The notes under the pieces: generated by a model
The model's database searches: none
What the model saw: the letters and a program-made list of their open reading frames with translations, nothing else
What the model was told of the DNA's origin: nothing
Shown: positions 7,563-40,225 of the stretch, one piece after another
How the letters are laid out: every line of letters begins with the position of its first letter
Numbering within the stretch: the stretch's first letter is position 1
Source of the DNA: Brachyspira sp. SAP_772
Lineage (GTDB): Bacteria; Spirochaetota; Brachyspiria; Brachyspirales; Brachyspiraceae
Reading direction: 5' to 3'
Length of the DNA stretch: 64,000 nt
Assembly (NCBI RefSeq): GCF_009755885.1
Contig: NZ_VYIX01000002.1
Location: forward strand, 668,864-732,863
Position numbers and translations under genes: made by a program

Positions 7563-7837
7563 GCAGGGCTTTGCCCCCTGCGAAGCGTGCCCTTAGGGTA
7601 GCACCCCATTTCTTTTACGACCGAAGTAAGTGCCTGTGGTATTGGTATAAAAGAAGCAAAAGAACTGCATTTTTAATCTAAGTTTATGGTATTATTTTAA
7701 TACATATTCTAGTACATGGAGTTAAAATATTTGCACTTTTTGCAACTTTTGACGAAGTCCGCACAGCGACCGAAGGAAGTGCCTGCGACTGAAAGGAGTA
7801 CCTTTAGGTATGGGTGCGAAGGCGGGAAAAGTTGATA
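7563..7837 (+). repeat. Dispersed intergenic repeat element, copy 1
   Basis: This fills most of the 530-base gap before murB. It starts with GCAGGGCTTTGCCCC, has a stem-loop module bounded by TTCTTTTA and TAAAAGAAG, then TGCATTTTT, an AT-rich spacer containing GGTATTAT, TTTGCACTTTTT, and a second module bounded by CAACTTTT and AAAAGTTG. The loops carry GC-richer units of the form GACCGAAGGAAGTGCCT. The same order is found at 27.4 kb (inverted) and 29.9 kb. No convincing ORF or RNA family is visible. Confidence 0.75.
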
Positions 7838-23131: not shown

Positions 23132-25300
23132 ATGAAAAAAGTATTTATTATATTATTCTTGTTTAATATTCTTTTGTATTCTAAAACTTTAGATGAATCG
23201 TTATTTTCCGCTGTAGAAGATAATAATATAAAAAAAGTTAAATCATATTTAGATAAAGGTGCAAACTGTAATGCATTAGATTCTTATAATAGAACGGCTT
23301 TAATAAATGCTTCTGTATGCGGATATGATGATATAGCAAAATTACTTATAGAAGAAGGTACAGATGTCAATATTAAAGATAAAGCAGGTGCTACAGCATT
23401 AATGTACGCTTCTAGAGATACAAATTATGAAATAGTTGAATTTTTATTAAAAAATGGTGCTGATGTAAACATTAAAGATATTGCAGGAGAAACTGCATTA
23501 TATTATAGTATTGAGCATAATAGTTACGGACAGGAAAATGAAAGAGAAAATGCTGTAAAAATACTTAATTTATTAATAAAATACGGTGCTGATGTAAATA
23601 CCAAAAATGATGAAGGTGCATCTCTTCTTGATGTATCCTATAGAATTTCAGAATCTTTTGATAAAAATAAAGAAATGTTTAAAATATTAGTTGAAAATGG
23701 TTTTGATGTAGAATCAAAAATAAAGTCGGATAGTACTGATTATGATTATACTCCTTTAATGATTTCTGTTTATAAAGAAGATTATGATATGGTTCAATAT
23801 TTGCTTGATAAAGGTGCCAATCCTAATGCGGCAAATAATGAAAACAAAACCGCTTTAATGATTGCTAATGATGATGGAAATTTTGATATTTCAAAATTAC
23901 TTATACAACAAGGTGCTAATATAAACGCACAAGATGAAGACGGCTGTACAACATTAATGACAGCTACTGTAAGCGGAGATTATGAAATGGTTAAATTTTT
24001 ATTAGAAAATGGTGCTGATATAAATACTAAAGACAATGATGGAAACACTGCATTATATTATAATATTTACTATGATCATTACGGAAAAGAAGAAAGACTA
24101 GAAAATGCTAAAAAAATATTTAATTTATTAATAAAATATGGTGCTGATGTAAATACTAAAGACAATGATGGAGCATCACTTCTTGATATATCTTATAGAC
24201 CTTCAACAGCCTTGATACAAAATAGAGAAATGTTTAAAGTATTAGTAGAAAATGGTTTTGACTTAGAATCAAGAATAAAGGGTGGGGATGATTATCCTAC
24301 TGATTATGATTATACTCCTTTAATGATAGCAGCTTTAAGAAATGACTATGATATGGTTAAATTTTTAGTTGAAAAAGGTGCCGATGTAAATGCTAAAACA
24401 CATTCTGAATATAGCTCAGTGGAAACTCCTCTATTACTCTCATTAGATTATGAACATATTGATTCTAGATATGATGAAAATTCATCTGTTGCAGAATTTT
24501 TAATAAATAATGGTGCTGATATAAATGTAACAAATGAGGATGGAGAGACACCTTTAATGTATGCTTCCAAAGTTCATAATATAAAAGTGGTAGAACTTCT
24601 AATACAAAAAGGTGCTGATATAAATGCTTTCAATAATTATGGAAATACAGCCTTAATATATGGTGTAAATAATTTAGAAACAGTAAAATTATTAGTGGAA
24701 AATGGTGCAGATGTAAACTTTTATAAAGGAGGAAGTACTGCTTTAATATCAGCATGTGAGTATAGTCATGAAAGAAATATAGATGTAATAAAATATTTAG
24801 TTTCAAAAAATGCCAATATAAATGCACAAGATAATGAAGGATACACAGCTTTAAATAAAACTCTTGATACTTCAGATGAAGGCAGTATTGATATATTAGA
24901 CTTTGAAATAGCTAATTTTTTAATAGAGCAAGGTGCTGATGTAAACATAAAGAATAAACGAGAATATACTCCTTTGATATATCTTGGTATGGGTGAAGGT
25001 AATTTTAATAATAAAAGTTTTCAGGAATATCGTATAAAATTAGCTGAAGTTTTATTAGAAAAAGGTGCAGATATTAATGCAAAAGATTATAATGGATACA
25101 CTTCTTTAATTTGGGCTTGTTCATCATATGGCTCAAGGTTTGCTGAACCATTTGTTAAATTTTTAGTAGAACAAGGGGCTGACATAAATATTACAAATAA
25201 CTATGGAGATACCGCTTTAGATATAGCAGAACATCTTAAACTTAGAAAAATTGTAAGCATTCTAAAAAAAGCTCAAAGAACTCAAATAAATAGAAAGTAA
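23132..25300 (+). CDS. Secreted ankyrin-repeat protein, 722 residues
   Basis: A signal peptide (about residues 1-18, MKKVFIILFLFNILLYSK) is followed by about 16 ankyrin repeats with the usual GADVNxKDxxGxTALMxA pattern, filling the whole mature protein. Such proteins bind other proteins; spirochaetes of this type carry many of them and their targets are unknown. A block of about 185 residues is duplicated in tandem: the parts containing ALYYSIEHNSYG and ALYYNIYYDHYG, ILNLLIKYGADVN and IFNLLIKYGADVN, and FKILVENGFDVES and FKVLVENGFDLES match at a constant 555-base offset. No catalytic domain is seen. GGGG before the ATG supports the start. Confidence 0.85.
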   Translation: MKKVFIILFLFNILLYSKTLDESLFSAVEDNNIKKVKSYLDKGANCNALDSYNRTALINASVCGYDDIAKLLIEEGTDVNIKDKAGATALMYASRDTNYEIVEFLLKNGADVNIKDIAGETALYYSIEHNSYGQENERENAVKILNLLIKYGADVNTKNDEGASLLDVSYRISESFDKNKEMFKILVENGFDVESKIKSDSTDYDYTPLMISVYKEDYDMVQYLLDKGANPNAANNENKTALMIANDDGNFDISKLLIQQGANINAQDEDGCTTLMTATVSGDYEMVKFLLENGADINTKDNDGNTALYYNIYYDHYGKEERLENAKKIFNLLIKYGADVNTKDNDGASLLDISYRPSTALIQNREMFKVLVENGFDLESRIKGGDDYPTDYDYTPLMIAALRNDYDMVKFLVEKGADVNAKTHSEYSSVETPLLLSLDYEHIDSRYDENSSVAEFLINNGADINVTNEDGETPLMYASKVHNIKVVELLIQKGADINAFNNYGNTALIYGVNNLETVKLLVENGADVNFYKGGSTALISACEYSHERNIDVIKYLVSKNANINAQDNEGYTALNKTLDTSDEGSIDILDFEIANFLIEQGADVNIKNKREYTPLIYLGMGEGNFNNKSFQEYRIKLAEVLLEKGADINAKDYNGYTSLIWACSSYGSRFAEPFVKFLVEQGADINITNNYGDTALDIAEHLKLRKIVSILKKAQRTQINRK

Positions 25301-27394: not shown

Positions 27395-27875
27395 TCAACT
27401 TTTTCCTGCAGCAAAAACTTTTCGCCCTTTGGGCACGCTTCGCGAAAGTGCAAATATTTAAGTTTTATATCTAGAAAATATATGAAATAATACCATACAT
27501 TTTTGGCTATATTTTATAAAAATGCAGTTCTTTTGCTTCTTTTATACTAATACCACAGGCACTTCCTTCGGTCGTAAAAGAAGTGGGGTGCGGGGCAAAG
27601 CCCTGCAAGTAATTAAAAAATTCAGTATATATTAAAACTATTATTTTAAATCAATTTTTTATTGTTCTTTTTCCCGCAGCTCGCGGTGCGGACTTCGTAA
27701 AAAGAACCAAAAAGTGCAAATGAAAAATACTATTAAGTAATACCAGTTATGTTTTATTAATATAATATCTATGTTTTGTATAAAATGCAGTTCTTCGAAA
27801 AGTGTGCTGACGAAGTCTAACTATGGCAGCAACTTTTGCAAATCCCACAGAGAATGTGCGACAAAAAAGTTGATA
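27395..27875 (-). repeat. Dispersed intergenic repeat element, copies 3a/3b (inverted orientation)
   Basis: Read on the minus strand, the stretch 27610-27395 gives the same order as copy 1: TTGCAGGGCTTTGCCCC, CTTCTTTTACGACCGAAGG, TATAAAAGAAGCAAAAGAAC, TGCATTTTT, GGTATTATTT, TTTGCACTTT. A second partial unit at about 27661-27875 has GTTCTTTTT/AAAAAGAAC arms and includes the left arm of the 96-bp inverted repeat. It fills the 670-base gap between mrr and the OppA-like gene; no gene is visible there. Confidence 0.75.
27699..27794 (+). repeat. Left arm of 96-bp inverted repeat around the OppA-like gene
   Basis: This segment is the reverse complement of 29702-29797 with one mismatch in 96 positions. 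It runs from AAAAAGAACC to TGCAGTTCT and belongs to the dispersed repeat element. The arms are 1907 bases apart. Confidence 0.9.
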
Positions 27876-27938
27876 ACATCTATATAATGTACATAAGCTA
27901 ACAAAAACTAATTGTTTAGTTATATTAACATAAAATAG

Positions 27939-27966
27939 TTGACATAATTATATATTTGGTTATTAT
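27939..27966 (+). promoter_or_regulatory. Sigma-70-type promoter for the OppA-like gene
   Basis: TTGACA (27939-27944), 16-base spacer, TATTAT (27961-27966). It lies inside the inverted-repeat-flanked segment, so promoter and gene would move together. Confidence 0.55.
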
Positions 27967-28022
27967 ATTTTAAAAATTAAATAAAGTAATATGAATAGTA
28001 TATATAGTATAAAGAGAATAAT

Positions 28023-29627
28023 ATGATAAAGAAAGTTATAATAATTTTGCTTGCAAATATATTTTTATTATCATGTTCTAATAGTAAGTCATCTAATGAA
28101 GGAATAGTGGTATCAGTTGGAGGGATGCCAAGCAGTTTAGATCCAGCATTTGCAAAAGGCATTAATACAGCAGTTTACATAACACATGCTTTTGAAACTC
28201 TTACTCAAAGAGATGAAGATGGTACTATAATTCCTGCACTTGCTGAAAGCTGGGAAGCTATGAGCAATAATACAGTTTATATATTTCATTTGAGAGAAAA
28301 TGCTAAATGGTCTGACGGGAAGACAGTAACTGCAAATGATTTTGTATACACTTTAAGAAGATTGATAGATCCTAAAGTTGCTTCCCCATTTTCTTTGGGT
28401 TTTGATATAATAAAAAATGCACATTCTATAATGTTGGGAGAGAAGCCATTAGAAGAATTAGGAGTTTATGCTTTAGATGATTATACTTTAAAAATAGAGC
28501 TTGATATACCGCTTCCTTATTTTGAGGAGGCTATGGCTAGTGATATTGCTTCTCCTGTGAGGGAAGATATTATAGAAGCTTACGGAGAAGATTGGGCATT
28601 AAATAAAGAACATTATATAGGAAACGGTCCTTATATAATAACAGAATATGATAAAGCTGTGAAAATAGTAATGGAGAAAAATCCTTATTATTGGGATAAA
28701 GATAATGTTAAGGCTGAAAAAATCACTTTTGAGTTTTTAGAAGATGTTAATACTGCAGTTGCGGCAATTTATGCAGAGAGTATATTATTTTATCCGGAGG
28801 CACCAGAAAATGAAAGAGCTTCTTTAATAGAGCAGGGCATAGGGATAGAAGTTGACATAACATCAATAGCTTACTATATGGTTAACTTAAAGAGAAAGCC
28901 TTTTACTGATCCTTTAGTAAGAAAAGCATTGGCGCTTGGCATAGATAGAAATTATATAGTAAATAATGTTTTAGGAGGAGGAAGGGTAGCAGCTAATGGT
29001 TTTGTTCCTATCAATGTAAAGAATGGTACTAATAATTTTAGAGATAATGCTCCTGAATATTTTTCTCTTAAAGAGAGCGATTATCAAAAAAATATTGAAG
29101 AAGCTAAAAAACTTCTTGCTCAGGCAGGATACAGTGACATGAAAAAATTCCCTATAATAGAGTTAATTACAACAACTAATCCTTCTTCATTATTTGTGGC
29201 AGAAGCTATTCAAAGTATGTATAAAAATAATTTAGGTATAGATTTAAAACTTAGATATGAAGAGCCCACAAGTTATTTGCAGTCTATAAAGGACGGAAGT
29301 TTTCAAATGATTAAGGCTGCTACAAGTGTTGCTTACAATCAGGCTACTGGTTATTTAAGACTTTTTCAGCTTGACGGTTTAGGAAATGACGGTGGATATA
29401 CTAATGAAGTTTATGATTATTTAGTTGATATTGCTATGACTAATGCCAATGAAGATATAAGAATAAAAGCAGCTTATGATGCAGAACGTATACTTATACA
29501 AGAGGATATGGCTATTATTCCTATATATTATGATAAAGCTACTGTTATGCAGAGTAAAAAGCTTCATGGTGTGAAATATGATATTTTCTCAATATATGAT
29601 TTTAGAAATGCCTATATAAGTGAATAA
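28023..29627 (+). CDS. oppA: Oligopeptide ABC transporter substrate-binding lipoprotein (OppA-like)
   Basis: The 534-residue protein begins with a lipoprotein signal peptide ending in LLSC. It has the family 5 solute-binding pattern: PSSLDPAFAKG, YITHAFETLTQRDEDGTIIPALAESWEA, HLRENAKWSDGKTVTANDFVYTLRRLIDPK, and FTDPLVRKALALGIDRN. Such proteins bind peptides outside the inner membrane and pass them to an Opp permease. No permease or ATPase genes adjoin, so it is an orphan binding protein or works with a transporter coded elsewhere. It is the only gene between two arms of a 96-bp inverted repeat. Confidence 0.9.
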   Translation: MIKKVIIILLANIFLLSCSNSKSSNEGIVVSVGGMPSSLDPAFAKGINTAVYITHAFETLTQRDEDGTIIPALAESWEAMSNNTVYIFHLRENAKWSDGKTVTANDFVYTLRRLIDPKVASPFSLGFDIIKNAHSIMLGEKPLEELGVYALDDYTLKIELDIPLPYFEEAMASDIASPVREDIIEAYGEDWALNKEHYIGNGPYIITEYDKAVKIVMEKNPYYWDKDNVKAEKITFEFLEDVNTAVAAIYAESILFYPEAPENERASLIEQGIGIEVDITSIAYYMVNLKRKPFTDPLVRKALALGIDRNYIVNNVLGGGRVAANGFVPINVKNGTNNFRDNAPEYFSLKESDYQKNIEEAKKLLAQAGYSDMKKFPIIELITTTNPSSLFVAEAIQSMYKNNLGIDLKLRYEEPTSYLQSIKDGSFQMIKAATSVAYNQATGYLRLFQLDGLGNDGGYTNEVYDYLVDIAMTNANEDIRIKAAYDAERILIQEDMAIIPIYYDKATVMQSKKLHGVKYDIFSIYDFRNAYISE

Positions 29628-29664
29628 TAATATGATTTTAGTTTATAAAGAAATTTTTTATTGT

Positions 29665-30225
29665 CATAAAAGAAGTTTATATGCTTCTGATATGCTTCAC
29701 GAGAACTGCATTTTATACAAAACATAGATATTATATTAATAAAACATAACTGGTATTACTTAATACTATTTTTCATTTGCACTTTTTGGTTCTTTTTGCT
29801 GCGGGAAAAAGAACTGGGGGTTCTACCCTACGGGTACGCTTCGCAGGGTGGCTAGTCCCCGAAAACAATAAAAATTAATTTTTAATAAAATATCAAATTT
29901 TTAGTGTATAGTTAAATAATTATATTTTATTTTAATGTCCGGGGCTTTGCCCCAGACCCCACTTCTTTTACGACCGCAGGAAGTGCCTTCGGTATTAGTA
30001 TAAAAGAAGCAAAAAGGCTGCATTTTTAGCTAAAATATAAGTATTATCTTACACTTTATACATATTCCAAACGTACATAGCTAAAACACTTGCACTTTTT
30101 GGTTCTTTGACGAAGTCCTCACCGCGACTGAAAGGAGTCCTTCAGGGCGACCGAAGGAAGTGCCTGCGACCGTAGGAAGTACCTTTAGGTATGGGTACGA
30201 AGGCGAAAAAAAGAACAATAAAAAA
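29665..30225 (+). repeat. Dispersed intergenic repeat element, copies 4a/4b
   Basis: Two copies in plus orientation fill much of the 920-base gap after the OppA-like gene. Copy 4a (to about 29875) contains the right arm of the inverted repeat and a GGTTCTTTTT/GAAAAAGAAC stem. Copy 4b (29937-30225) has GGGGCTTTGCCCC, CTTCTTTTACGACCGCAGG, GTATAAAAGAAGC, TGCATTTTTA, TTGCACTTTTTGG, then three successive GC-rich units of the type GACCGAAGGAAGTGCCTGC, closed by AAAAGAAC. Confidence 0.75.
29702..29797 (-). repeat. Right arm of 96-bp inverted repeat around the OppA-like gene
   Basis: Matches the reverse complement of 27699-27794 at 95 of 96 positions. Beyond the arms, similarity drops to the general words shared by the repeat family. 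Confidence 0.9.
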
Positions 30226-30272
30226 TATACAAAATTTTTTATTTAATAAAAAAATCTATAATTTTAAATTAA

Positions 30273-30338
30273 TTATCTATTATATAAATACATCATAGCA
30301 GTAAGCACAGCTCCGCCTAAATTCCTTGTCTTGTCTGA
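30273..30338 (-). pseudogene. Possible 3' remnant of a lost gene
   Basis: On the minus strand 21 codons (SDKTRNLGGAVLTAMMYLYNR) end in a stop; upstream codons hit stops at once. The peptide looks like a true protein C-terminus with a hydrophobic tail, but I cannot name the family. It sits between repeat copy 4b and the YheO-type regulator, where the remaining sequence shows nothing else. Confidence 0.25.
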
Positions 30339-30548
30339 AATTGTAAATCAATTATTGTATTCTCATTGGCTGTATAACTATATTAATACTTCCGTAATAA
30401 TTAGAAAATAAAAAAAGAGATTTGTAGGCAATGCATATAGAAAATCAAAAAAGATTTTATTTTTTATTGAAAATCTAAAAAAAAATTAGTATACTATAAA
30501 CTAATCAATTAATAATGTTAAAATATTTTATCATTTTGTAGGTATTTT

Positions 30549-33932: not shown

Positions 33933-34783
33933 AGGAACTTAAAAGCTTATGGTAATACTCAAACAAGTTGGGCTATGGCTTATGGTATTTATAGTATTAT
34001 AGGAGTAATATTATTCCTTATTACATTTAAATACACCAAAGAAAGAGTTGGAAGTATATCAAGTACAACCAGACAAAAAGTTCCTATAGCTGAAAGTTTA
34101 AAAAGTCTTTTAAAAAATAAGTATTGGATTATAATTTTTGTTTATAGCATAGTTCAGACTATAGGTATAATAGTAACAAATACTAGCACAGTATATTATG
34201 CTAAATATATTTTCGGCGATGAAAACATAGTAAAATATTTTACAGTAACAAATTTCATTCCTGTAATATTAGGTGTTGTATTTTTGATGCCTTTTCTTAT
34301 TGAAAAATACGGTAAAAGAAATGTGGGGATAATGGGCCGTATTATATATATAATTTCTACATTTATTATTATATTTGCAGGAAATGATTTTACAATTGTA
34401 ATGATAGGCAATATAATAAGAGGTTTTTCAGGTTCATTCAATTGTGCGGCTGGATGGGCATTTTCTCAGATATAATAGAATATGGAGAATAGAAAAATGG
34501 AATTAGAAATGAGAGCGTTATATATTCTGCTGGCAGTTTTGGACAGAAATTTGGATCTGGAATAGCTGCTGCATTGTTTGGTTGGATATTAACTGCTTTT
34601 GGATATCAAGCTAATGCGGAGGTCGTTTCATCTGGTACAATATTTGCTATAAAATTTTTATTCTTATATTTGCCTATTTTAGCTAATGTTATACAGATAA
34701 TACTTTTATATTTATATAAACTAGATAAACTTTATTCTCAGATAATAAAAGAATTACAAGAAAGAAATTTACAAAATAATTAA
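33933..34783 (+). pseudogene. GPH-family sugar:cation symporter remnant
   Basis: Several disjoint frames encode the C-terminal half of a melibiose/xyloside-type symporter. Recognisable parts are WAMAYGIYSIIGVILFLITF, KYWIIIFVYSIVQTIGIIV, FSGSFNCAAGWAFSQI, then IEYGE, stop, KNGIRNESVIYSAGSFGQKF and a final two-helix part. Defects: the first about 220 residues are absent, a frameshift follows FSQI, and a TAG stands where the family has Trp (EYGEW). These transporters take up glycosides. Together with the following broken arabinofuranosidase it implies a lost arabinoside pathway. Confidence 0.8.
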
Positions 34784-34792
34784 ACAATTTAA

Positions 34793-35874
<1,082 letters not shown>

Positions 35875-35961: not shown

Positions 35962-36209
35962 TCAAAACAGAAGAAAATTCTTAAATCTAAAAATCTTTGA
36001 GTAAAAAAAATCTATTTTTATAATATTTATTTTTAAATAAATCAAATTTGTAGTATAAAAGTAATAATTATAGTATATAATGCGTTTCATTTTTATATAA
36101 TAAGAAAATATAATCAATAAAATATTTGGAGGGTTTAATATGATAAAAAAATTATCTATTATTCTTTGTTCTTTCGTATTCTTTATGATTTCTTGCTCTG
36201 GAGGAAATG
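35962..36209 (+). repeat. Direct repeat, copy A: leader and signal-peptide region
   Basis: About 245 bases here are very similar to 39981-40225. The match begins with TCAAAACAGAAGAAAA, which in copy B is the coding 3' end of the GguB permease but here lies in non-coding DNA, continues through the promoter and leader, and ends after the lipoprotein signal-peptide codons of the following binding-protein gene. Copy A therefore carries a fossil of a permease gene end. Confidence 0.88.
36051..36081 (+). promoter_or_regulatory. Promoter/operator of the ChvE-type transporter operon
   Basis: TAGTATA at 36051-36057 and 36071-36077 form a direct repeat with 20-base spacing, typical of AraC-family half-sites; the second overlaps a TATAAT -10 box (36076-36081). 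No good -35 box is present, as usual for activator-dependent promoters. Confidence 0.5.
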
Positions 36210-40004: not shown

Positions 40005-40225
40005 ACCTAAAATCTGTGAGTAAAAATTGTTTTTATGATTTTTATTTTTAAATAAATCAAATTTGTAGTATAAAGGTAATAATTATAGTATATAAAGTGT
40101 TTCATTTTTATATAATAAGAAAATATAATCAATAAAATATTTGGAGGGTTTAATATGATAAAAAAATTATCTATTATTCTTTGTTCTTTCGTATTCTTTA
40201 TGATTTCTTGTTCTGGAGGCAATAA
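39981..40225 (+). repeat. Direct repeat, copy B: permease end, leader and signal-peptide region
   Basis: Copy B of the repeat at 35962-36209. It spans the last codons of gguB, the whole intergenic leader and the signal-peptide codons of ytfQ. Differences are scattered small substitutions and short indels. Confidence 0.88.
40066..40096 (+). promoter_or_regulatory. Promoter/operator of the YtfQRT-YjfF operon
   Basis: Same arrangement as at 36051: TAGTATA at 40066-40072 and 40086-40092, 20 bases apart, the second overlapping a TATAAA -10-like box. The -10 box is one base weaker than that of copy A. Confidence 0.45.

Follow-up and report, generated by a model that had tools for sequence, protein, structure and literature searches.

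At this locus a single gene for an OppA-type lipoprotein lies between two almost identical inverted repeats, and the question it raises is whether the arrangement reflects a segment that flips, a segment that has moved as a unit, or two repeats that recent copying has made alike. The window, that is the whole stretch of 64,000 nucleotides of Brachyspira sp. SAP_772 DNA analysed here, was surveyed by ungapped self-comparison. This recovered positions 27699-27794 and 29702-29797 as inverted copies matching at 95 of 96 positions and spaced by 1907 nt, as the first-pass annotation had described them (about 1.9 kb apart). The likeness does not end with these arms. A perfect 17 nt, GTTCTTTTTCCCGCAGC, lies outward of the left arm at 27664-27680 and has its complement at 29798-29814, and the block that the two copies really share measures 113 bp (27664-27794 / 29702-29814), with one difference. 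Its sole interruption is an insert of 18 bp (27681-27698, TCGCGGTGCGGACTTCGT) within the loop of the left hairpin, which the arm alignment shows to be missing from the right copy; the module that makes up this insert (ACGAAGTCCGCACCGCGA on the other strand) is found again in other loops.

The left repeat unit, on the plus strand, thus comprises the arm and the outer hairpin half (27664-27794, profile match 27664-27790), and the right unit, on the minus strand, comprises its arm and hairpin half with the usual loop of 8 nt (29702-29814). Further outward, profile matches place one more unit of the same repeat family on each side, at 27399-27526 on the plus strand and at 30018-30215 on the minus strand. 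The outer repeats 27508-27621 and 29924-30037 are inverted too, at 82% identity, or 91% over 87 ungapped bases. The arms are the best pair in the window, but the earlier description, which set them far apart from all other pairs there, was overstated, since two rivals reach 95-96%; positions 7601-7675 and 27517-27591, for example, are 96% identical over 75 bp.

Between the arms, the expected single intact lipoprotein gene and its promoter were found. The gene, hereafter oppA (28023-29627, plus strand), is conserved in the genus and encodes 534 amino acids with a match to SBP_bac_5 (E = 8e-85), a lipobox-like LLSC close to the start of the open reading frame, and OppA/MppA as best solved relatives. 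A promoter-like site, TTGACA-16-TATTAT, lies on the plus strand at 27939-27966, past the left arm and ahead of the start codon. The leader (27920-28022) is 98% identical to that of L001, the locus of B. pilosicoli PC5538III-hc, which is the nearest relative carrying the gene (its contig is shared with genome G041). No match to oppA was found among viral contigs. It is an ordinary transporter gene with its own promoter-like site inside the segment, and this site would travel with the segment.

Genome searches and a profile search agree with the earlier assignment of both arms to a dispersed intergenic family. When the arm was searched in 41 genomes, copies were found in nearly all those of Brachyspira, and outside the genus none was found bar one marginal match. 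A profile grown from the right arm was run over stretches totalling 1.14 Mb, and detected 73 copies in 744 kb of the 3.04-Mb genome of the window and 17 copies in 400 kb of genome G007. The window holds six copies, two of them on either side of oppA, those on the left on the plus strand and those on the right on the minus strand. Copies sit after genes: 30 of 86 occupy gaps between convergent genes and only 3 are in divergent gaps, yet the latter make up 27% of gap length, and 4 of 90 fall inside open reading frames. Many units carry a hairpin with the stem GTTCTTTTT/AAAAAGAAC or CAACTTTTT/AAAAAGTTG, and with both strands counted the matched forms number 32 and 57 against 3 of each mixed form. 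At 27399-27794, at 29702-30215 and in the family copies of L035-L088 the stems likewise pair GTTC with GAAC or CAAC with GTTG, and mixed forms are few. The hairpin loops vary in length and content and include nested G+C-rich modules; the usual loop has 8 nt, and a 26-nt loop occurs at the left arm only in the 1.14 Mb surveyed.

These features recall the short extragenic palindromic repeats known as REP, BIME and REPIN (PMC3116915, PMC3733652), in that the family is short, dispersed, extragenic and hairpin-forming, lies mostly after genes and is often clustered. As a palindromic extragenic repeat dispersed in many copies it fits what defines REP and REPIN elements, but its units are longer and modular, with a core of about 113 bp and flanking modules. 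It is not filed here as a REPIN because no match to Y1_Tnp, the Y1 transposase (RAYT), was found in the genome, in a search in which control genomes including E. coli were positive. Brachyspira is not named in PMC3733652, the searched literature on Brachyspira repeats held no description of the family, and an Rfam search of the window returned nothing but a tRNA.

How unusual is the likeness of the arms for such a family? In the 1.14 Mb from two genomes, intergenic pairs of at least 97% identity were denser within 3 kb than far apart, an excess that consists mostly of direct repeats, several beside related tandem genes, and in which inverted pairs are represented by one case. Were copies evenly scattered, 0.13 close inverted pairs of at least 97% identity and at least 60 bp would be expected (P about 0.12); at the level of at least 98% and at least 80 bp the survey contained no distant pair, and the expectation there is under about 0.03. 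A third comparable copy of the arm, above 82% identity, was not found in the genome, the next match of similar length being 82% over 66 bases. Other single genes lying between near-identical repeats were considered as further cases and set aside, as these are direct repeats beside related ankyrin genes, for which tandem duplication is the best reading. A large ankyrin-repeat gene also lies beside the present locus (23132-25300), and elsewhere in the genome ankyrin genes are arranged in tandem, separated by near-identical intergenic repeats.

In L001, oppA occupies the same site as in the window and has the same orientation, and there is no arm pair. The two loci are 96.3% identical in the DNA of oppA and 94.6% in the unique flank R (30208-30367), which is also present in genomes G041, G007, G015 and G001. 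The right-hand unit of L001 has about the inner 30 bp in common with the right arm of the window and is then diverged with gaps, and to the left of oppA, where the window has the inverted arm, L001 has a direct duplication of R. In L001 these direct copies of about 120 bp of unique flank DNA (L001:9668-9787 and L001:12105-12227) show the pattern expected from single-crossover integration or a tandem event.

The arms differ at 1 position in 113. Between the two genomes neighbouring DNA differs by 4-5%, the values being 3.7% for oppA and 5.4% for flank R; arm to arm the identity is 99%, whereas the right arm is clearly diverged from the unit at the same position in L001. Recent copying or conversion, as the first-pass annotation proposed from the likeness of the arms (95 of 96 positions), is the explanation that we favour. 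We give a probability of roughly 0.7 to the arm pair being the product of recent local short-patch copying between two repeat units, and the presence of oppA at the same place in L001, where the right unit is diverged and the left arm is lacking, supports it. Further support comes from the failure to find a comparable third copy, from the greater density within 3 kb of pairs of at least 97% identity, and from a second probable short-patch copy in the window, the 112 identical bases shared by two binding-protein genes described below. Two dispersed hairpin-repeat units flank oppA in opposite orientations, and one of them would recently have been replaced by a copy of its partner, or generated afresh from that partner, by RecA-type gene conversion or by replication template switching between hairpins. 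The left unit would since then have acquired one substitution and the 18-bp loop insert. Mechanism, direction and date of this copying are what we infer from the comparison of sequences. Of the two, the right unit more probably served as the source: its loop has the common length of 8 nt, and where the arms mismatch it carries the base of the unit in G007. That the block shows a single difference in 113 bp while neighbouring sequence differs by 3.7-5.4% suggests that the copying took place after the window genome and L001 had split.

The likeness to gene conversion between dispersed repeats lies in the short near-identical tract with sharp ends amid nearby repeats that are otherwise diverged; here, however, donor and tract ends are deduced, and a replication template switch would look alike. 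By analogy, the arm pair may work like gene conversion between REP-like repeats. The conversion reading draws on a single strain of the species, and a mobile repeat that had inserted twice would leave much the same picture. Such independent recent insertions of the same unit, in opposite orientations around oppA, would accord with a family that is dispersed and has other copies at 97-98% identity far apart in the genome, and also with a shared block that starts and ends at the hairpin motifs of the unit. We nevertheless consider them unlikely, as neither a comparable third copy above 82% nor a Y1 transposase was found and a diverged unit already occupies the right-hand place in L001.

In favour of the earlier suggestion that the segment could flip by recombination between the arms, inverted repeats 113 bp long that mismatch only once are a possible substrate for RecA-dependent inversion. 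Rare flipping of this kind is possible with arms this long, and the gene would keep its own promoter. As a standing invertible segment, in which recombination between the arms turns oppA over, the locus is nonetheless very improbable, because L001 has the same orientation in the absence of the arm pair, the promoter-like site lies inside the segment, no match to Resolvase (serine recombinase) turned up in the genome, and matches to Phage_integrase (tyrosine recombinase) were found on contig C1 only, while the window is on C2. The orientation of the segment is that of one assembly and is the same in the nearest relative. Invertons, such as invertible promoters (PMC8748976, PMC11892184), likewise consist of a DNA segment between inverted repeats. 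They differ from the present locus in that here promoter-like site and gene both lie inside the arms, and inversion would not change which gene is read; in addition, there is no invertase nearby, no alternative orientation was seen, and the arms belong to a repeat dispersed throughout the genus.

In the comparison of the locus among relatives that had been proposed alongside these ideas, the nearest relative has the same gene orientation without the arm pair, and three others have the flank without the gene. In G007, G015 and G001 the right-hand flank is present and no ortholog of the oppA of the window was found. G015 is the clear empty site because the left-hand gene is present there too, while the contig of G001 begins at the flank. 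In G007 a single arm-like unit adjoins the right-hand flank; it has the orientation of the left arm, yet runs into the inner module of the right unit. Between flank R and a YheO-like gene, G041, G007, G015 and G001 have about 8 kb that are missing here (at 30367-30409).

In the other Brachyspira examined, oppA is mostly found in another neighbourhood, near kptA and recA as judged from open reading frames; a kptA-like protein was not found in the searched genomes of the pilosicoli clade. In the oppA tree, the genes of the window and L001 group beside an uncultured species within the genus (support 98/97), a position which hints at transfer in a tree with a long outgroup branch and no species-tree control. 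These observations bear on the proposal that the segment has moved as a unit, oppA having been brought to its site by a composite mobile cassette that has the arms as its ends. The differing sites of oppA, the flank that lacks it in three genomes, its nesting among other species in the tree and the direct duplication of unique flank DNA around it in L001 would all suit such a cassette. The boundaries do not. Homology with most Brachyspira loci starts at about 27920, a short way ahead of the promoter, and what the genus conserves extends from this point to about 29640-29663, inside the arms at both ends. Since this homology begins inside the arms, they do not delimit a moved cassette. L001 moreover carries oppA in the same place without them, and neither a Y1 transposase nor a serine recombinase was found. 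Although oppA does occupy different sites in different species, an arm-bounded mobile unit is highly improbable.

With local copying kept as the preferred account of the arm pair, the pair itself is ordinary repeat turnover, and the family and the turnover of genes at this site are the better leads. The family is abundant, lies mostly 3' of genes, has compensated hairpin stems and surrounds a site of variable gene content. One may speculate that such dispersed repeats act as portable homology for the gain, loss and movement of single genes between Brachyspira genomes, although we regard this as doubtful. If it were true, the VSH-1 gene transfer agent, for example, could be a vehicle, oppA would here be one such exchange, and the fresh arms would have arisen incidentally in the recombination by which the gene was put there or retained.

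Two further observations concern the DNA to the right of the locus. Short open reading frames at 33975-34475 and 35272-35874 have partial matches only, to parts of an MFS sugar transporter and of an alpha-L-arabinofuranosidase C-terminal domain, and are possibly remnants of longer genes. About 6 kb to the right of the arm pair, 36007-36208 and 40022-40223 are direct copies with 95% identity over 202 bp. They belong to two Peripla_BP_4 (binding-protein) genes, and a stretch of 112 identical bases takes in the promoter, ribosome site and signal peptide of each, although the two proteins share only 31% identity. This repeat may reflect either local short-patch copying or the sharing of promoter and signal peptide.
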